Of a stretch of DNA of 64,000 bases, positions 2,901 to 55,790 are shown piece after piece. Within the stretch, counting starts at the first letter, position 1, and the number at the start of each line of letters is the position of its first letter. The notes beneath the pieces were generated by a model. The model searched no databases and was not told the origin of the DNA. It saw only the letters and a list, made by a program, of their open reading frames with translations. The stretch covers positions 10,436,685 through 10,500,684 of the forward strand of contig CP141140.1 of NCBI GenBank assembly GCA_035235625.1, written 5' to 3'. The stretch is from Saururus chinensis (lineage: Eukaryota; Streptophyta; Magnoliopsida; Piperales; Saururaceae). The position numbers and the translations under genes were made by a program.

Positions 2901-5900
2901 TAACGGTTCTCCGTATCTCTCCCTTATCGCTCCCGTCTATTGACGGTGTATATATTGATATATATTAATATTAACGTATATTAATATATAGTTTATGTAT
3001 ATTTCTTACTTTGGGCTCATTGTTAAGATAGGAACATCAAAAACTTTTTCCCCTTACTCTATACCCCTTTTTAAGTTTAGCATGCGAACTAAAGAAAATG
3101 ATATTCATAATACAAATTATAATTTATATAGCTAATAATTTTAAATATTCAAAAGATTCATAATTGTATAATTATTTATTAATTATATCAAAACTAATGA
3201 AATAAAAATGACATACTAATGTCAAATCAAACTTATAGAAGAAAAAAATATTTTTACATGCTAGAAGAAGAGTTATGCCACAATTAGGCTTTTCCATTAT
3301 CTTTTAATCTCGTATTGGATACCTACATCATAAAAGATGATGAGTACATAAAAATATTTTATTAAATAGTAATTTAAATAAAACTAAAAGTTCCAAACAA
3401 CATACTAACAAATATTCGTTGGTAAGTCCTTGCATAAATCAACAAAATCATATTTACACATACATTTTATCAGTAAGTATTCAATTCTCAAAGAGTAATC
3501 ATATTTCAAGGTTATCTAGATACGATAACTTCATATAGGAGCTTCACTCAACTAGATAATGGGTCATCATAATGCAACCTCAGTTCTTCTTAAGCTTGTT
3601 TCACCTCATCCATGTCATAAAGTAAACGCTCATTATAGCTCATGGATCTTATACCTAGATTCTAACTTTCATGATCATTAAACCCCACATATTGCATTGC
3701 ACAATATCAATTATCTTTTGATGTTATAGTATGTTTGAACTCAACTTCAGGGCTAGGGAAGCGGTTCTACGTAACTCTTATCCCAAAAGAGCTAAAAGAT
3801 CTTATTCTTATTTCATACTAAACTTTTTTCATCTATGTGGCTAAAGACTCACTTAAAGAGCTAAAGCCATAAGGAATATATAACCCCATGTGTCAAATAC
3901 ATCATTTTTGGGTATGCATCCATCATATCAAATGGTCTTATACACATGCATTATGGTTCATTAACCTTTACATACATAATAATGCATAATTGTCACTTCA
4001 GTCACATTATTAAATGATTCAAATGATACATTTATTTACATAATAATTATATATTTAACATTACTAAAACATGTATTAAAAATCCAAAACATGCATTACC
4101 ATTAGTAAACTCATCGACAAGTCAATTCTCGAATCGATGATCGTCGGTGTATTCATCGACATATTAAACCCTACTAACAATAAATTCGAGGTACCATTAG
4201 TAGCTTCACAGATGACCCTTAGTAAGTTCACTGATGAGTCGAACCTTATAGACACTGAGTTGGTTGGTATATTACTATAATAACCAAAAGATTTGAAAAA
4301 TATCTTTGAACATTTTTTTACTTCAAATTTGACCTCGAAATATTTTGCTTTCGTATTTGATATAGTTTAGAGTGTGTGTGCTTATTTGTTGTGTTAGAGA
4401 CTTAGTTGAACCTTTAGATATTAGTAAACCCAACTCGTCGACTTTAGGGCTTCTAACCTTAGTACTTTAAAAATATTATATTTCTCACTACACATATAAT
4501 TTTGACAGCAAACTTATTGGATTAAAAACTAGACTCAAAGATGAATATAATGTACCAAAGAACACCTACAATAACCTTTGAATGGCCAAGATATTATCAT
4601 TTAAAGTTAGGGGTACTACCGTTTGATCCTACATGAGTTTCTATGTAGGACCTACAGGGGTACATGGGGGCCACTACTCAAATTCAACCCAGGTGAGCTT
4701 ATATGACCTCATAGAATAATGGTCAGGATTTCCTAAGCTTAAGACATGGATTGGTTAGTGAAAAGACCTTTCTCATAATCGAGACTTGGCCAAACAAAAT
4801 TTTATCTACTATGGTCTCCGCAAAGCAGCTATAACTCCCCTCACAAAATTCTAATTTTTATAGTCTTATATAATTTTAAAATCTTATTCAAAGGTTCATA
4901 AAATTATCTCTAATATGAATTTCATGATTCGTATGTTTTGGAGGTCAAAATTCACATCCAATCAAAGTCAAAGTAACCAAGGAGTCTTCCCAAACTCCTA
5001 ATTCCTCTCAACCTCCCAACCAACTAAATTTTTGACCCATAACCAACTTTTAAAATGAGCCAACCATAATTTCTGAACCAATTTACTTTCTAATTACTTA
5101 ATAATTTTAGAAATTTTATTCCTTAATTTATTCAATTTACTTTCTCTTTTGAAAGACCAAGGAAAAATCACTTAAGTGAGTAAGAGTAAACATTTCTTAA
5201 ATGTCTATAAAAGGGACAAGAAAAACCCTCTCTCCTCTATTACATGTCCCTCCCTCTCCCTTGTGGTATGTCCTTCTCCCTCTCTTTCTCTCTCCTTGCA
5301 TCATTTTCTCTCGCTATACTTCTATTTCTCTCTTTGCATATTTATCTATCTTCTTTCTCGCTCAATTTGAACTCACTTTAATTCAATCTTCTTTACTTAT
5401 TTTTTTTCTATATTATATTGGTCAAAATCTCTTGTAATCAGTTTATTAGTGATTAGTTTAGTGATCAGTAGAGTTTGCTTTGATTTTGTAGAAACTAACT
5501 TCGCATAAATTGAGCACGATTTAGAAATCAGTGGTAAGGAAATCAACCTATGAATCTAAATTTTTATGAATATTCTTTATCACCGTTATAAACTATATGA
5601 TTGTTAGAATAAGGTTTGATTGAATTCTAGTACGTGGATTTTTTTGGTTATTTTCTAGCATTTTTGTGATTATTTAATTAGCATTATATTCTTGGCTTAG
5701 TGTTATAAAATCTATATATAATTTTGTAGATGTCTAAAAACCATAAAAAATTAATCATGATGTGTACATAGGTATATAAATTCTATATAATTTTGAGAAG
5801 CCTTAGAGTATGTAAAAAGACCGAATTACTCTTCTAATTTATATTATTTTTATACTACCCAAATAATTTGTTTTCAAGGTCAAATTTTTTGTATTGACTT

Positions 5901-41467: not shown

Positions 41468-42084
41468 CTAAGAAGAAAATGGCACCCGAATAATTTCCAA
41501 GAATGTGGGGTTCTGCAACCCCAAATGTGCCTCTTTTTTCTTTTTCTATATTTCATTTGATGAGGTAATTTTATAGTTCAAATAAGACGGCAATGGTGGA
41601 TATATCTATTTAGAAGTTTCAAATGGCGACTACAAGTAACATATTTTTTTGCTAAAGGACTACAAATAACATGAAATCACTAACCGATCGTCTATGGTGC
41701 TCTTAACCCTTCGCCTTTTCCTTCTCCTGATTGAGTTCCGGTCCACCTTGCATCTTATCTCTAATTTTGGCATTAAGTTGAATGTTCTGACCATCGGCGG
41801 TCATGTTTGTAGCTTGAGTCTCATCCAATCGCCTATTCACAATTTAACACTTCTGAGAGATTGTTATATAAAAAGAAAACCTCTTCTGCGATATTGAAAA
41901 TGTTACATGCGGTCGCCACACTCGTGCGATTTGAAGGCCTGGGGCATGGACCCTGGACCCAGCCACGCAGTGTTTTAGTGGTCGACATTGAACTAAGAAA
42001 TCACCAAATCCTATTCCCATCCCAAGAAACCGCCCACACGCAGAGCCATACCTCTTTCCTTCTTGTTGTCCAGTTTTGGGAGCC
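41468..42084 (+). promoter_or_regulatory. SNX1 3' flank and promoter of the next gene
   Basis: The SNX1 3' UTR probably fills the first 150 bp or so. A TATA-like TATATAAAA at 41865-41873 lies 212 bp upstream of the next ATG and fits a promoter with a leader of roughly 180 bp. No reading frame here is convincing. Confidence 0.4.
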
Positions 42085-42840
42085 ATGGCCGCTGCAAGAC
42101 AACTCCCTCGCGCGACGCGTACTTCACCTCATCCGCTTTTCACCTCCCTTCGCTCTCGCTTCAACTTCAGCACGACGCTTTTCAGCTCTAACAATCGCTG
42201 CACTACTAAGTTGTGCAGCTTCAACCTGAGTGGTCTCTCTCGTCGCTGGGCGCCATCTATCAAGGCATCGTCTGAAAGTGTCGGGTTCGGAGACGAAGAC
42301 GGAGTCTCCCTGGGAACCATGAAGTTGCCTCCAGATACCGACATTGGCAGATTCGAACAGTTGCTTTTTCAGGTATCGAGTACGATTCACTACTCAACAG
42401 TCACCTGCTCTACTAACGACCGTGTTGTTGTAATTGATCTTTGTGGGTTTTGTGGCAGTGGGCAAACAGTCTATGCCAAGGTGCAAACATGCCACTTTCG
42501 GTACCTTTGAAGGTTTGTTTTTAGGCGTCAGCTACGCTTTTTACTGTTCTAATTGTAGCCTATTGAATTTGCATGAGCAACCCCATGATCTGATCATTGT
42601 TAGGTGGATAAGGTAAAAGGGGGAGTCAGATTAGGATTTATCAGAATAGAAGACGAGGGGCGGACTGAGGTGTTTGTATACATTGACTGTCTGGTGTTGC
42701 CTACCACGGGCAGCTCGGGGCCCATGTTCAGGGCCACAAGGAACGGGCTCTTGAAAGATCAGCCACCTCCTGACGAGCCAAGGATCATGAGAAGTCTCCT
42801 TGCGGCCTTGCAGAAATCAGTTGAAATAGCAAAAAATTGA
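42085..42840 (+). CDS. Conserved plant protein of unknown function, probably plastid
   Basis: Three exons (42085-42372, 42459-42512, 42604-42840) encode 192 residues in frame. The ATG sits in a GCCATGG context. Residues 1-65 are rich in Ser, Arg and Thr with almost no acids, as in a chloroplast transit peptide. The conserved part starts near 78: MKLPPDTDIGRFEQLLFQWA, LPLKVDKVKGGVRLGFI-like, EVFVYIDCLVLP and PPDEPRIMRSLLAALQKSVE. I recall closely similar Arabidopsis proteins (At5g52960-like) that carry no assigned activity; some database names for them are unreliable. No catalytic motif is visible. The frame is intact and the gene is 620 bp downstream of SNX1 on the same strand. Confidence 0.85.
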
Positions 42841-43307
42841 AAGGGTGGGAAGGATGCTAGTGGTTTCTAGAACTGGATTGTATTAGTTGATTTTATTTCT
42901 TTACTTTTTGTTGTGGAGCTACGGTGAAAACAAATATCCAAGGGAACATGAATTTCTTATAATCACGTAACATCGTTTTTTCAGATGGAGTGAGACTTTT
43001 TTCTTTTTGCATAAAACATCGTTTTTTCAAATGGAGTGAGATTATTTTTACCCTTCATACGAACTTCGATACTGCCTTGGTATGTGATAAAAAAGATTCG
43101 TGAAAACTTATTCATAGACCATCATGAAATAGTCAATATATACCGACTTGAACGAGTACTATTTATTTTTGGCCCGCTGGACAAATGCACCATGAAGGCC
43201 AATTTATTTGCAGCCATCATACCCAACAAAAAGTTAAATAAAAAAAAGTTAAATTTATTAATTTTTTTACTCTATCAAATAAGAAAGATAATATTAAGTA
43301 ATTAGTA

Positions 43308-43551
43308 TACCCTCCGTACAATGTAAATAGTTATATTTAAAAAATAATAAATTTTATTTCATAGTGAAATTCACAATTAAGAGAAAGAAAAATAAACTTA
43401 TAATACTCTCTTTTAAATATCTAATTGCTTAAAGTAAACAAAATGAAGCTCTAGAACAAATTTTTTTGTTATATAGAGCTATTAATGTAGGATTGAAGGC
43501 GTATAATTTTTTTTTTCAAATTAAGACAATTAATATACAATAAAAGGAGTA
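43308..43551. mobile_element. Stowaway-like MITE (244 bp)
   Basis: Begins TACCCTCCGTACAATG and ends with the complement of TACTCCTTTTATTG, with an AT-rich core. Length and ends fit Stowaway MITEs, whose TA duplication is included in the limits. Confidence 0.6.
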
Positions 43552-45270: not shown

Positions 45271-48200
45271 ATGGAGGGGGAAAGGAAGGTGCTTGAAGAT
45301 GGATACGACGCTGTCGTGGTCGGGTCGGGCTACGGCGGGTCTGTTGCTGCTTGCAGGATGGCCATGGCTGGCCTAAGGGTGTGCTTGGTTGAGAAAGGCC
45401 GGAAATGGGAAGCAAGGGACTTCCCCACAAACAGTCTTCAAATGCTTTCGTCAGTTAGGATGAACTTAACGAACTGGGGATTGAGTTTTGGCAAGAGCGA
45501 TGCTCTGTTTCAGGTGTTGATCCATTGGTTAATCACTCATCTTTAATCCTTTTGCTTAATCCAGTGTTATTATCGACTCTATTTATGATGCTGCAGATCC
45601 ACATACAAGAAGATTCACTAGCAGGAGTTGTGTGTGGCCTGGGAGGGGGGTCTTTAGTTAATGCAGGAGTTATAATATCCACGCCGATACGGGTGAGGAA
45701 GAGCCCGAATTGGCCAAAAGAATGGGAGAAGGATTGGGCAACGTCTGAGGCGTCCGCATTAGCAATGCTGAGGCCGGAGAGTGCTCCTCTGGAGTTCTCT
45801 AATGGCAGAGTCATGAGAGAAGTAGCCGAGGAAATCGAAGTTAGCAGCCCAAACCATGTCAAGTTGACTATCAATTTTGGTAGTGGAAAGGAAGCCGCTT
45901 CGGGGGAATCGCAGCAGCTGAGCAACTGTTTGGCCTGTGGGAACTGCATGTCCGGATGCCCTTACAATGCCAAGAAATCCCTGGACAAGAGCTACTTGGC
46001 TCTGGCGATGGAGGTACGGTCATGGAACACTTTCTTTGTATTTATTTGGCCAGAAGTAGGATAATTTCAGTTTCTAGCGTTTTTTTATCTTTGTATTGAA
46101 ATGACGCAGTTGATAATCAGTTTCCTGATAGCAATTAGTTACTCATGGCTGCAGGCTGGATGCACAATAAGAACTGGACGCCAAGTGAAATACGTAGTAA
46201 AGAACCCAGACGAAGAGCGTGAGGAACATGGTACAGTGAGTAAGAGAGAGCAAAGGAGGTGGCGGGTTCATTTTGATAATTTTGAGTATATTAGTACTGA
46301 TTTTGTAGTTCTTTCAGGTATGGAGTAGTTAAGTATATCTGCCATCGTGATTTTTTTTCTCACTGACAAGAGAATAATAAATCCGTGAAATTACATTTCT
46401 TGCATCTGTAGCTGGAGTTCTAGGCACTAGAGAGATCCTTTTCCAGTCAGAGAGAAGAGGTTTGAGACTCTCAGAGAAGCTTGGCTTTGGGTTCAGCTGC
46501 AACGGAAGCAATGTGGCTTATGTCACCGGATGCTCCGCGCCACTGAATGCTTATGGACTTAGCCATAAAAGCTTCTCAAAGGTTCCCTTCCAGGATCGAC
46601 CCGGTCCTGCAATCACTTCATCTTATACTTCATCTCTGGGCTTCACAATTCAGGTAAAAAAGAAATTTTCTCCTATGGGAAGTTGGATTCTCTATTTCTT
46701 AGTCATATCCTCTTGCATATGATGTAGATAGAGCCCATAATCAAGTATCAGTGATCTACTTGGATTGAAATTGTGAGTCTAATTAGGGAGCCTTTTGCAG
46801 AGTGGAGTGCTTCCAACAGCTTATCCCTACTTAATATTCAAAGGTATTTGCACCTATGGGTGGCCCTCCGGATTCTGGTTCTTACATGGCGTTATTGATA
46901 AACTGAAGCGCTTGATGGGATCAAAATCATGTCAGGGGATGGTGCTTAATGCGATCGGGCATGATGAATGTGACGGTAGAATTATGCTGGACAAGAGCAC
47001 AGATAAGATCCGGTTCACTTCCCCTCGGGATGCATTACTTGCAAAGAAGATTCATGTATTTCAAAAGCTTACCAAGAGACTAGGAGGGATCCTGTTCATG
47101 TCAAGGTTTCGAAGTACGTCGGTTCATCTCATAGGAGGGTGCACTGCAGCATCAAATCCTTCAAATGGTGTTTGTAATCCAGATGGTCAGGTTTTTGACC
47201 CTTGTGGTCCTACTCCCTCAGTGCACCAAGGCCTATATGTTTGTGACGCCTCTTTGATCCCTTGTTCAATTGGTATCAATCCTTGCCTCACCATAGCTAC
47301 TGTCGCAGAGCATGTGAGCAGACACTTGGTTGAAGAGGTCATCCGGTATAAAAGCTTAAAGTTCCCGATCGAAGTTTTAATTGAGAGATTGAGAACTCGT
47401 TTTGATCAGGCAGGTTCAGAGTTTGTAGATAAGTTGGTCGATTCTGAACCTGTTGTCAGGAACTTAGATAGTACTCTTAAGCCTCCAAAGAGAGTTCCCA
47501 GCATTACGTCTGACGAGACTGTAACCATAACAGAGATCATAAAAGGTTATGTTGCGGGAATGCCGTGTACAGCTTATTTAATAATGAAGATGAACTCAGG
47601 AAGCCAGAGAGTTTGTAAGAACGAATGCTCAAGTGTGGACTCACACTCGGTCCTTAATGGGAAGGTTGGTGGATATGTGATACTTCGAGGTGTAGAAAAG
47701 GATAAACTCTATATTCTTGATGGGAAGGTAAATATGTGTAGTACAGATAGCAGAACACCATATACGCAGTTTATGGATTACCATCTCCAATTGGCATCAG
47801 CCTCTGGTTCAAGGTATACAATTTTATTTGAAACGTAATTATTGTTCAAAACTACTCTGCCGTTGGTTTTTATTTTTTATTTATTAAATTCTCCTTGATT
47901 CGACCAGCTAATATTTTTTGGGGAACTTGGTTGACATATTTAACCAGAACATGACTGAATGCAGATACATTCTCGAGGGGAGAAAGGTCATGAATCCATA
48001 TCTTATGGGTTTGTATGCTTGGAAAGAGTCCACAACTTTACATGTCACACTCAGATCAGTTTATCCAAAAGATCAATCTGAGATAAAACAGCAGCGTGAT
48101 CGATCAAAATGTGAAATTGACCTCAAGGGCGAGCTATATGTGTCTCCTTTTGAACTAGCAAGGAGCTTGATAAGCATGAGAGGGACTAACGGAGGAAAGT

Positions 48201-51222: not shown

Positions 51223-52902
51223 GCTCTCTTGTTAATTTCTTTTTCACGGAAGTCGATTAAATTCTACAATCTCCTAAACACATATACTTAGAATTTTATA
51301 TAAGTCAAAATATCCACTTTCATGCGAACGGTCACAGAATAGGTGTAAACCAAAGTTAACTTTTACATGGCAAAATTCTACCCTATTTCATCATTTCAAC
51401 ACATGAATGCTTAAAAGTAAAATAATATTAATCTTAGTTACCTTTCAAACTATCTACCCATATAGTACAACAACATAAAAACAATAATAGGGTTCTTCCC
51501 AACAAGGACAAACAACCTAATTAATTTACCAATAGGTCTCCAGTAAAATTATATTGTGTACAACAGTATAATTTTGGTATTATTTGCTTACAATAAATTC
51601 CCTTGTAAAGCAAATCGTGACTCGTAAATAAACCCAATGACCTCTTAGAACCCTCAGACCGATCATAAAGTAATTCTCTTTATTTAAATATATATAAAAA
51701 AAACTTTGTGCACCGATATCCACCATAAAATGCCTAAGCTACAATAAATAAGAAGTTATATGACTCAATCTCTTGCTAAGACCCATTAGTTATTCATATT
51801 TTACTATTATCGCAAGTGAGCATGAGTAAAATTGTATTATTATATATAATGTAATTTAGTTAAGACCTATTAGTCAACATGGATGACCACTAGGTCTTAG
51901 CAAGAATTATCCCTATTTATTAAAATCAAAATTATGAAAATACAATTTCTCAATCAACGAAGCGTGAGTTAAACAAGGTACGACGCAAATTCAAAGAGGA
52001 GCATTGACGAGGTCTCTGAATCCTCGTTGGGCCGAATGTTGAAAAGCCGAATGAATTGCCATCGTGCTCCAACCGAAAAAATCTTCCTCTAACGAACAAT
52101 GATCTCAAAAACTCAAACACAAGTCTGCCACAGGGCTCATAACCCAAAGCCAATCCAAGCTGATGGAAATTACAGTGTTGCACCGGGATAATATTTTTTC
52201 TTCGTTTATTTTTTTTACTCGCTTTACTTAATATTAATAACTCTATTTAGTTTTTTAAATTAAAATTAATTTATTTTAAAAAATTAAATAAAGTTATCAA
52301 TTTGGGATAAACAAAGCTTAATTTTTAAAAAACCAAATTAACTTGGCCATTGCAAAAAAAGGCCAGAGTTGTTGACCAGCTTGACTCGGTGCAACTCGGA
52401 AACCAGTCCAATCTAGGTTATACTCCTGTCTTTCACAATTGCCCTGACACCCTCCTTCTCATTTTTCTTGTTAACCTTCTTCGTCTCTTTCTTTCGCCTC
52501 CTCCACGGCCAATAGTCCTTCGTCGCCAACGAGTAGTTTAACTGCTACTAAAATCACTCCTCTACTGTAGGCTATGTCTATAAACCTCATCTTTAGATCC
52601 CAACGTCGCGATAATACTACAATAACTATTGTTTACCTCCTCAACTCAAACCCAACCCCTCAGAGATTTCTAAAAATAACATATTTTTGGTATGTTGTCC
52701 GCCCTAGCAAGAACCAGAGCGATAGTGGAGTTAAATTATTGATTACTTTCACGACTTGATGGAACTATGACGTCTCTTAACTGCTCAAAGGTTTCTGCCA
52801 TGACAATTGAGAAAAACCTGCGTCATCATCTGTGTCAACTTGAATGTACTTAATTGAACCGGGTTGACCTGGTCTGATCGCGTGAGTTCAAACGCAATGA
52901 TA
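51223..52902. other. Intergenic DNA without a recognised gene
   Basis: AT-rich with two short GC-richer patches (51950-52150, 52350-52540) that contain small frames of no recognisable family. Confidence 0.4.
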
Positions 52903-53063
52903 TACTCTCTCCGTCCGATTTTAATAGCTCCATATTTCATTTTCGTTATTTTTATCAAACACCTTTTTTCTGACTCTCACAATAAGTATTAACCATGAAA
53001 GTATAACTGACTCCTCTTCCCGGCATTGGGCAGTAAACGGCAGCCACGGGACCATGGCGTTAG

Positions 53064-54126
53064 CCGCTGGTTGGAAACCTCTTGCAGATAAACCGCAAAA
53101 GGCCTCACGTGGCCCTCACCAATCTTGCCCGCTCCCACGGCCCATTGTTCTTTGTATGGCTCAGAATGAAGCTCCTTGTCGTGGCCTCCTCCCCGGCTGC
53201 TGCCGCTAAGGTCCTCATGGCACATGACCAAATTCTATTGGCCCGGTTCATCCTTCACACTTTCATAATTGGGTTCTATACTCCCTACTCGCTAGCTTAG
53301 GCAATGGAGTGCAACAAGAGGTAGAAGAAACTTAGAAGTGTTTGCAAGTCGAAGCTGTTCTTTGTGAAGACCCTAGGAGCTGCACTCACAGATGAGGGAG
53401 GAGAAGGTCTTTCAGCTGGTGCAGTCTGTTCTGCAGAGACAAAGGGAGGAGGTTAAGATTGCAGGACTAGTTTTCAAAACTGTTTTTAACACTCTGGGCA
53501 ATGTTATTTTCTCTAAAGATGTCTTCGATTTAGAGAAGAGCCTTATTTCCAGAGTCATGGAGCTGGCTCTGGCTCCAAATGTTGCAGACTTTTATCCAGG
53601 ACTGGATAGGTTTGACATTCAAGGCCCAAATAGAGAGAGTATGGGGTACGCATATAGAGTATATAAGATGTGGGAGGCACTCACGGAGAAAAGGAAGCAT
53701 CAGAGGGACTCAAATTCAAATGAAAACTTCTTGTCCATGCAGCTCACCACTGGTTTTGATGATCTCCAGCTCAAGGCTTTATTCACCGTCAGCAATCTCA
53801 ATCCAAGTAATTTTTCTAAGTGGATTTCTTTGTCCTTCTCATCTCTCTTAGTTTCATAAATGCTGAGCTCAGCTTACACAAGACATATTTGTTGCTGGGA
53901 CGGATACATGCACCACCACAATCGAGTGGGCACTCTCTAAGTTAATCAGGAACCCGGAAGCCATGGCTAGAGCTCGGAATGAGGTGGAAAGGGTGGTGGG
54001 GCATAGAAGAAAGGGAGATAACACAGTAAAAGAGATCCATCTAGTCCACCTCACCTACCTCCAGGCATGCATCAAAGAGACACTGTGTCTGCACCCACCC
54101 ACCAGTCCCGCCTACTTACACCAAAG
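53064..54126 (+). pseudogene. Cytochrome P450 pseudogene (CYP71-clan type)
   Basis: Pieces in order: PLVGNLLQI, then HVALTNLARSHGPLFFVWLR and LLVVASSPAAAAKVLMAHDQ (N-terminal beta region). About 140 bp later come VFNTLGNVIFSKDVFDLEKS and DFYPGLDRFDIQG, then the I-helix FVAGTDTCTTTIEW and KLIRNPEAMARARNEVERVV, ending with YLQACIKETLCLHPP (K-helix ExxR region start). The piece is cut before the PERF and heme-binding segments, so it cannot be active. The reading frame has stops and shifts between the first two blocks (for example after LLARF). An intron-like gap remains at about 53800-53886 in front of the I-helix, so the copy came from genomic DNA, not mRNA. The sequence is closest in style to CYP76/CYP80; that assignment is from memory. 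Confidence 0.85.
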
Positions 54127-54179
54127 GTTGTACGGAGGCATGGCCTCTTGATTTCATGTCCATCCTCCTTCCCTTTTCT

Positions 54180-54760
54180 TCTCACGATCCTCTGCTCCAG
54201 CGTGAGCACACAAGATAGTCTATGATAGAACAGAAAGAATGGAAGAAGAGAGTGGGGGAAGAGGCTCTGATGGCAAGACACGCTCTCGGTTAGCCTACCC
54301 AGTCGATTCCTGTCACCCTCCTGATCTCCACCTTCTCGTTCGACCTGCCCAGCCCTCAGGTGCTCTTCATCGACATGTTTCGCCCTAGCACCTCCACCGC
54401 GAAGTTGATCATGTCCTTCGCCAAGGCCACACACCGCTTTGTCTCCCCGCGGCTGGGAGTCCGCTCGCACTCCTCCAATGTCCTCCCCCACCATCCCCGC
54501 CATGGTCGAGTTCTCGTCCGCCCCGAACACCCACAACAGCTCCCCCATCAGGGTGGCACTCAAGAACGGGAACCTCCTTGCGATGGACCGCGGCAGGAAC
54601 GACCGCGCGTGCCGGCATCTTGTCCGATATGTTTGGCATTTTCATCACGCTGCCTTGCTTCAACGTCGACTCCCTGAAGAACTTGCCCTCCTCCACCACC
54701 CACCTCCTATTCGCCGGACTGCTCACTCCTGACTTGGCACCAGCAACTGCGTTCGTATGC
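54180..54760 (-). pseudogene. BURP-domain pseudogene (polygalacturonase-1 beta-subunit-like)
   Basis: On the minus strand: KFFRESTLKQGSVMKMPNIS, DKMPARA, then after a frame change ATLMGELLWVFGADENSTMA, later GDKAVCGLGE in a shifted frame, and ESVSCHQSLFPHSLL near the end. These follow the order of the BURP domain of PG1-beta/RD22-like wall proteins (FFRE..LK.G..M.MPDI.DKMP..., GE..RC.., SVSCHQ). At least two frame changes break it. It starts inside the element and lies tail to tail with the P450 piece, so the two fragments are unlikely to come from one locus. Confidence 0.8.
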
Positions 54761-55018
54761 TCGGGGTGGTTTTTTGCTTTGTGTTGGGAGAAGGAGACAG
54801 GCCATCAAGGTTTTCCTTTCCACCCAAGGAAGAAGAGGTTTAAGAGGCAACACGAAGGTATTAGCCTCTCGATTCTGAGTTTCTGGCTTCAGTGGAACGA
54901 AGAAACAGTGCGAAGCAATAGATACCCATGTAATGGTTTAAATTGAGGGAAATGTAGCAATTAATATAGTATAGTGCTTTTTTTCTATTGGAGCTATTAA
55001 AATAGGACGGAGGGAGTA

Positions 55019-55790
55019 TGTTAGTATTTTTATTGAAAGTCTAATAATAATTGCTGAAAACAAAGAATTACTCCCCCTCATATATTTATAGTTTTATTTA
55101 ATTTTTTTAAATAAATTTAAACTAATTTATTTAAATAATAGAATTAAGATATTAATATAAGACAAAAATTATTTAAGTGGTAAATAATTTTTATTAAAAT
55201 ATTAATAATTTTTTAAAATTTATAAAATTAAAATTATTTATTTTACTATTTTCTTTGATCATAACCAAGAATCTTGATGTGACTAAAATTGCAAAGCATA
55301 AAAATGCTATAGCTCATGAGATAAATGCACACTAATTTTTTTTAAGAGGGCCGCTAAGGTGAGTCTGGGCTCACGCGTGGCCCAGGCCCACTGGGCAGTC
55401 AAATTTATATTTGACGGCCCACATTTGCCCCCTAAGTAACGTGGACTATTGGATATAAATCCAATGGCCCGGTGGGCCTGGGCTCACGCAGCCACGCATG
55501 AGCCTAGGCTAACCTCAACTTTTTCCTTTTCTTAATAAGTATGTAATTTTAAAAATAAATAATATTTGTTAAATTAATATTTATTATTTTTAAATAAAAA
55601 ATATTATATATAAAAAATATTTAAAAAATAATTATTAAAATAAAAAAATATTTCTCAAATTAGTGTATTTTTATATATTTTTCTTTAATTTCATCCTTCT
55701 TGATGAAATCACGTTTAAGTTGATAAATATCTCTTTAGAGTAATTTCGTCCGACGAAATCCCCATTGTGGTACGAGCACTCCCCGTTGTG
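55019..55790. other. AT-rich spacer
   Basis: Contains a possible lone Stowaway-like end at 55069 (TTACTCCCCCTCATATATTT) without a partner. No gene. Confidence 0.4.
55354..55525. repeat. Foldback repeat, AGTTGAGGTGAGC family (long copy)
   Basis: GCTAAGGTGAGTCTGGGCTC at the left is mirrored by GAGCCTAGGCTAACCTCAAC at the right. Internally GTCAAATTTATATTTGAC and GGCCCA/TGGGCC pair as well. It shares words with the short hairpin at 33188-33241. Confidence 0.65.

Follow-up and report, generated by a model that had tools for sequence, protein, structure and literature searches.

Fragments of three genes within a Stowaway-ended element of Saururus chinensis, and a family of elements that carries other cargoes between the same ends

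Stowaway (Tc1/mariner) elements have ends of the CTCCCTCCGTCC type, and ordinary Stowaway MITEs are a few hundred bases long and empty. Pack-MULEs and Helitrons are the classic gene-capturing transposons; Pack-MULEs keep introns, MULEs are flanked by 9-11-nt duplications and Helitrons have characteristic ends of their own. Closest to the locus reported here are the Pack-Mariner elements of rice and maize, described as having Stow (Mariner) ends, TA duplications and cargo from multiple loci (Gisby and Catoni 2022, PMC8903248). According to the same source, 19% of the rice Pack-Mariners draw on more than one locus, fused copies are seen in cluster #217, and the Mariner Pack elements described are mostly low-copy, with gene stretches of 58-280 bp in the examples described, and packFinder drops singletons. 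In the literature searched, the term Pack-Mariner occurred in PMC8903248 only, and no paper joined Stowaway with the string CTCCCTCCGT.

The window analysed here is a stretch of 64,000 nt of the S. chinensis genome (C1:10436685-10500684), and the genome searched comprises 516 Mb in 11 contigs. The near-perfect inverted Stowaway ends around 2.1 kb that a first-pass annotation had reported in the window are real. The element extends over 2.1 kb from 52905 to 55016 with a TA on either side (Table 1); the inverted arms (52902-52932 and 54989-55019) are 31 nt long and 94% complementary, and its two 30-nt ends are identical at 28 of 30 positions. These ends are short, inverted and of the CTCCCTCCGTCC type, taking that motif as it is generally known, and the duplication of TA is that of Stowaway (Tc1/mariner) elements. 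Only three sites in the window lie within eight mismatches of the 30-nt end (52903, 54989 and 43474), and none did so in 50 letter-shuffled windows, so the ends of the element exceed chance. Elsewhere in the window we note a worn Stowaway-like element (43306-43503), small at about 198 bp, with inward-facing ends at 9 and 7 mismatches from the family end, pieces of a GMC-type oxidoreductase gene to the left of the element (45459-47835, + strand; Pfam PF00732 and PF05199) and an ORF matching DUF7148 (41992-42507).

Table 1. Features of the Stowaway-ended element, in window coordinates
Feature	Position	Strand	Basis and remarks
Left TA target-site duplication	52903..52904		Read from the arms
Left terminal inverted repeat (CTCTCTCCGTCC...)	52905..52932	+	Inverted-arm search
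Left end region	52905..53012	+	Alignment of 20 elements
Cytochrome P450 fragment (part of exon 1, intron, part of exon 2)	53013..54111	+	87.5% identity to the C8 gene; PF00067
HMG-box fragment 1, start of the HMG box	54115..54252	-	92% identity to L056 (C6); frame read in L056
BURP-domain fragment	54251..54806	-	88% identity to L055 (C10:35909463-35910010)
HMG-box fragment 2, first-exon side	54793..54895	-	70% identity to L056 (C6)
Right end region, common to other-cargo elements	54925..55016	+	About 90 nt; start approximate, by eye
Right terminal inverted repeat	54989..55016	-	Inverted-arm search and comparison of the ends
Right TA target-site duplication	55017..55018		Read from the arms; TA count

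The cargo had been described as a truncated P450 gene on the + strand and a truncated BURP gene on the - strand. Both fragments are present according to Pfam, and both could be aligned to candidate parent genes (Table 1), but the count of two genes was wrong, as an HMG-box gene contributes a third; the element thus holds pieces of three unrelated genes, whose closest relatives lie on three chromosomes (P450 on C8, HMG-box on C6 and BURP on C10). PF00067 matches the P450 part in three + strand pieces with E-values of 2.6e-8, 0.0011 (the middle piece, below the Pfam cut-off) and 3.4e-21. The closest P450 gene belongs to a cluster on C8 and lies on the reverse strand of L021, the stretch fetched around it. 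The alignment to this gene continues across the intron-like gap of the fragment (approximately 53807-53882, limits by eye), which is therefore a real intron, and it also passes through the intron in five other copies of the element, which are 90-91.5% identical to the gene; other members of the cluster are 68-81% identical to the P450 part. The retained intron supports capture at the DNA level, as had been proposed, and a processed (RNA-level) capture was rejected on the same grounds. Relative to the closest C8 gene, the P450 piece in the window is broken by stops, small gaps and a 24-nt deletion. In-frame stops interrupt that gene too, so the captured sequence may instead have come from a closely related gene. 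Four copies (L019, L020, L023 and L025) retain about 115 nt of sequence upstream of the P450 gene at 72-78% identity, and no match to this upstream stretch was found in the window copy, L009, L011, L013 or L017; its presence in some copies suggests that the captured stretch probably once extended further.

The BURP fragment matches PF03181 on the - strand with an E-value of 7.2e-8 (a second, overlapping frame scores 2.1e-4, below the cut-off), and its closest gene, L055, encodes a BURP domain that covers almost the full length of the model (E-value 6e-66). The HMG box of L056 was recognised with an E-value of 8e-13 for the part tested, in a piece translated by eye whose frame, computed afterwards, agrees. 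In the element the BURP fragment lies between the two HMG pieces, where it replaces about 320 nt of the HMG-box gene. The first-pass annotation would have taken its reading as refuted by the same P450-BURP arrangement in relatives lacking the ends; as far as this one genome can show, the outcome favours that reading: the closest genes are on C8 and C10, and the stretches fetched around the P450, BURP and HMG source genes (L021, L055 and L056) contain no 30-nt end within eight mismatches.

The same ends enclose other interiors as well. The first 198 nt of the element, used as a query, gave 42 matches at 39 places, from the best 40 of 133 candidates, and all 39 places were fetched and scanned for the 30-nt end at eight mismatches or fewer. 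With the window copy added, 25 two-ended elements were identified, of which L042 is a doubtful member (its ends are alike at 20 of 30 positions and one side lacks a TA). Grouped by shared interior, using plus-strand matches of at least 150 nt only, these fall into 13 cargo groups: P450-HMG-BURP with seven elements, the L035 type with three, the L016, L038, L040 and L051 types with two each, and seven singles. The LDH elements were placed apart although their right-hand tract is common with the P450 group. When 20 elements are aligned, the end regions correspond whereas the interiors differ, with a poorer fit for L042 and L048; judged by eye, the initial part of the left end region that elements with other cargo also possess measures very roughly 58-97 nt. 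Element lengths range from 0.84 to 3.6 kb including nested insertions. A TA is present at both sides in 24 of the 25 elements, and the base before the TA is an A and the base after it a T in 21 elements each, which likely reflects a target preference of the family.

Cargoes were named from Pfam matches of ORFs of at least 48 aa, selected in one representative per group (part of them for L048 and L050). Matches above the cut-off were obtained in 7 of the 13 groups and comprise P450, BURP, LDH, NAD-binding, beta-amylase, tubulin chaperone C, rubredoxin and ankyrin; the IPO5-like match of L046 is below the cut-off, and the submitted ORFs of five groups (L036, L040, L042, L048 and L050) gave no Pfam match, so not every interior can be called genic. 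The ankyrin and beta-amylase cargoes are multicopy and occur at several places each. Besides P450-HMG-BURP there are 12 groups with different cargo between the family ends (one of these groups being doubtful), so capture is a habit of this Stowaway-ended family. Several further loci deserve mention. L024, in which one end is clear and the right end worn, carries a germin-like cupin and is not among the 25. L026 (C6:41265363-41268460) has a single family end and a DUF1191 match in the 3 kb inward of it, which is either cargo or a neighbouring gene, and L026, L043 and L044 have only about the first 425 nt in common; these were left uncounted. L040, L041 and others occupy about eight places, mostly 1.3 kb long and with ends 90-100% like those of L040; L040 and L041, the former with cargo that has no Pfam match, are 96% alike throughout, and these places are possibly a young burst. 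The LDH-carrying copy L018 contains a further insertion of about 745 bp (3142-3887).

A census of ends with at most one mismatch found 180 places, as against none for the reversed control pattern. Among 100 listed of these 180, there were 14 inward-facing pairs within 10 kb, spaced 842-2131 bp apart, and no outward-facing pairs. No pair in that sample was shorter than 842 bp, and when the two ends were placed next to each other in one query, the best 40 of 785 candidates, very common words being skipped, included no compact empty copy. Small copies with the family ends may nevertheless exist.

Comparison between cargo groups bears on the order in which the pieces were acquired. The right-hand HMG tract is related to a tract in the LDH elements L016 and L018, and its score was reached in none of 500 shuffles for the window copy, L016 and L018 (306 of 500 for L035 and 13 of 500 for L040). 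A tract common with the LDH elements suggests that the HMG-box piece was captured first and the others later, inside it. As judged from sequence identity, the second HMG piece, being less gene-like than the first, would fit an older age. Based on this nesting and on the tracts shared between elements, we hypothesize that an ancestral element acquired a fragment of an HMG-box gene that the LDH-carrying branch still has in part, and that P450 sequence from a C8-like gene, more HMG sequence and BURP sequence from a C10-like gene were subsequently placed inside the older sequence. The composite then multiplied to at least 17 places, yielding the deleted and interrupted copies observed. A transposase supplied from elsewhere presumably recognises the ends of about 30 nt, with insertion at a TA and its duplication, as seen in the flanks. 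For the capture step itself we consider it plausible, though we hold this tentatively, that unlinked genes were copied into the element while a break within it was being repaired, with the template switching at a few matching bases and the new pieces replacing the older middle. This reading is drawn from the position of BURP inside HMG and from the occurrence of P450/BURP in some elements and LDH in others beside the same HMG tract; the HMG-BURP borders have 2-4 matching bases and no visible transposon end, both judged by eye.

Alternatively, Stowaway copies on either side of each gene piece may have fused, the whole later becoming mobile as a unit, an explanation that we regard as possible but somewhat doubtful and that differs from the favoured reading in the capture step alone, the element being the same. 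Such fusion of neighbours is a published model for Pack-TYPE elements, with a rice Pack-Mariner as an example (PMC8903248), and by eye an internal stretch of the LDH element L016 resembles a leftover end and L049 adjoins a further Stowaway-like end in its flank. In L021, some 2 kb away from the P450 piece, a single 500-nt segment also contains seven weak 14-nt matches to the end, with three mismatches each, which look like a tandem repeat. On the other hand, the BURP piece sits between the HMG pieces with no visible end remnant at its borders, three source genes on three chromosomes demand serial fusions, and the stretches fetched around all three source genes lack the family end at up to eight mismatches, though copies could have left them since.

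The composite element is dispersed in the genome: the proposed search for insertions with both ends and the same interior found near-full copies on other chromosomes. Three match the window element from end to end (L009 on C4 at 94.7%, L010 on C2 at 95.2% and L011 on C8 at 91.0%), four are interrupted by other DNA (L012, L013, L015 and L017) and six miss internal parts (L014, L019, L020, L022, L023 and L025). Queries made of the P450 part and of the HMG/BURP part gave 28 matches each; leaving out source genes and their relatives, cargo pieces are found at at least 17 places. Sixteen of these are common to both searches, and the other one, L014 at C1:49.685 Mb, shows the start of the P450 in the full-length comparison. 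The P450 distance from a copy to the nearest gene is 0.087-0.112 in seven long copies, as against 0.143 in L012 with its 194-nt piece, and between copies it is 0.026-0.027 from the window element to L009 and L010 and 0.013 from L009 to L010, which agrees with one capture followed by spread. The BURP distances fit one capture plus spread less neatly, being 0.109-0.127 to the closest gene yet up to 0.143 between copies.

Sites lacking the element were sought for nine copies with probes made of the two 90-nt flanks fused at a single TA, and a decided outcome was obtained for seven of them, all but L018 and L020. Element-free sites were recovered for five: the window copy, L009, L011, L016 and L017. 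For the window copy there is one such site, 21 kb away (C1:10511834-10512006), which aligns continuously at 79% over 178 nt and has one TA; L017 likewise has one, at 85%, continuous and with a single TA. More than 100 are listed for L016, in a repeat on many contigs, and the two compared (87 and 89%) have the TA intact. Sites spanning the joint number 26 for L009 and three for L011, and in those compared the alignment is continuous and the TA itself is changed. L010 and L013 found their own flanks only, in the best 40 of 639 candidates. L016, which carries LDH, is inserted in one copy of a repeat seen at L062, L063 and many other places on several contigs; the spacing between copies is often about 320 bp, and the repeat is probably a tandem satellite.

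These observations also bear on whether two unrelated Stowaway insertions might flank a decayed chromosome piece, so that the 2.1 kb would be no unit. The window does contain a further Stowaway-like end pair, but this explanation is very improbable, since the same ends and 2.1-kb interior recur at unlinked places, the two ends of the element are nearly identical and the flanks run continuously into an element-free site. The same pair of ends around the same cargo elsewhere, together with the element-free flanks of five copies, settles in favour of a single unit the earlier concern that the ends could be separate MITE insertions.

In its superfamily ends and duplication, its non-autonomous nature, the host coding DNA inside it and its presence in more than one copy, the element has the properties of Pack-TYPE elements, and we classify it with high confidence as a non-autonomous Tc1/mariner-type, Stowaway-ended carrier of host gene fragments (Pack-Mariner or Pack-Stowaway). 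The Pack-type Stowaway proposed in the first-pass annotation is thereby supported, gene fragments being both joined and dispersed. A Pack-MULE or Helitron, for which similar cargo behaviour might speak, can practically be dismissed in view of the TA duplications and short CTCCCTCC-type ends, as opposed to MULE duplications or Helitron ends. The element resembles Stowaway MITEs in its type of ends and its TA duplication, and differs from ordinary ones in that it is 2.1 kb long with three gene pieces, the listed pairs of its family spanning 842-2131 bp with none shorter among 100 of the 180 near-perfect ends. It is like Pack-MULEs in its retained intron and in carrying host gene pieces, with several loci per element (PMC8903248), and unlike them in its superfamily, its short ends and its duplication, which is of TA only and not of 9-11 nt. 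Arabidopsis Pack-CACTA elements (Catoni et al. 2019, via PMC8903248 and PMC13317346) are similarly non-autonomous carriers of gene pieces but have CACTA ends, with capture by neighbouring insertions, and CACTA elements duplicate 5 nt (PMC8903248). With the Pack-Mariners of rice and maize it has in common the Stow ends, TA duplications, lack of autonomy and coding DNA inside (PMC8903248); unlike those, one set of ends here encloses 13 interior groups, several of them multicopy, and three genes are combined in one element, a difference drawn from the examples described in PMC8903248, the tables of which may include a similar family.

No partner transposase could be tied to the family ends in genome searches and in stretches beside two transposase copies, and seven ORFs scanned in the window element gave no transposase match. 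A genome search with PF13358 (DDE_3) found no match and this model is uninformative, since a mariner-like query did match, and mariner-like transposase pieces are present in the genome. Three short stretches beside two transposase copies (L064 and L065 on C11, L066 on C9) contain no 14-nt end start within four mismatches. The mariner-like transposase adjoined by L064 and L065 (C11:21956900-21957560 and 21958000-21959400) has an open frame of 476 aa without stops, and our guess is that it is a domesticated transposase.

Elements of this kind are already known, and what is distinctive here is the number of cargoes per pair of ends, the copy numbers and a readable history of nested capture. Small transposons of this type have time and again taken up gene fragments, joined them and dispersed them. 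As the same ends enclose many cargoes with identifiable source genes and nested captures, the junctions let each capture model be tested, and the nested order bears on the open question of mechanism. If the repair-copying reading is true, it would constitute a general capture route for DNA transposons distinct from the fusion of neighbouring insertions, and this Stowaway-ended family would be a record of successive capture events. Annotators should be aware that scattered sequence resembling P450, BURP, LDH or other genes in this genome can be the cargo of transposons and need not represent genes.
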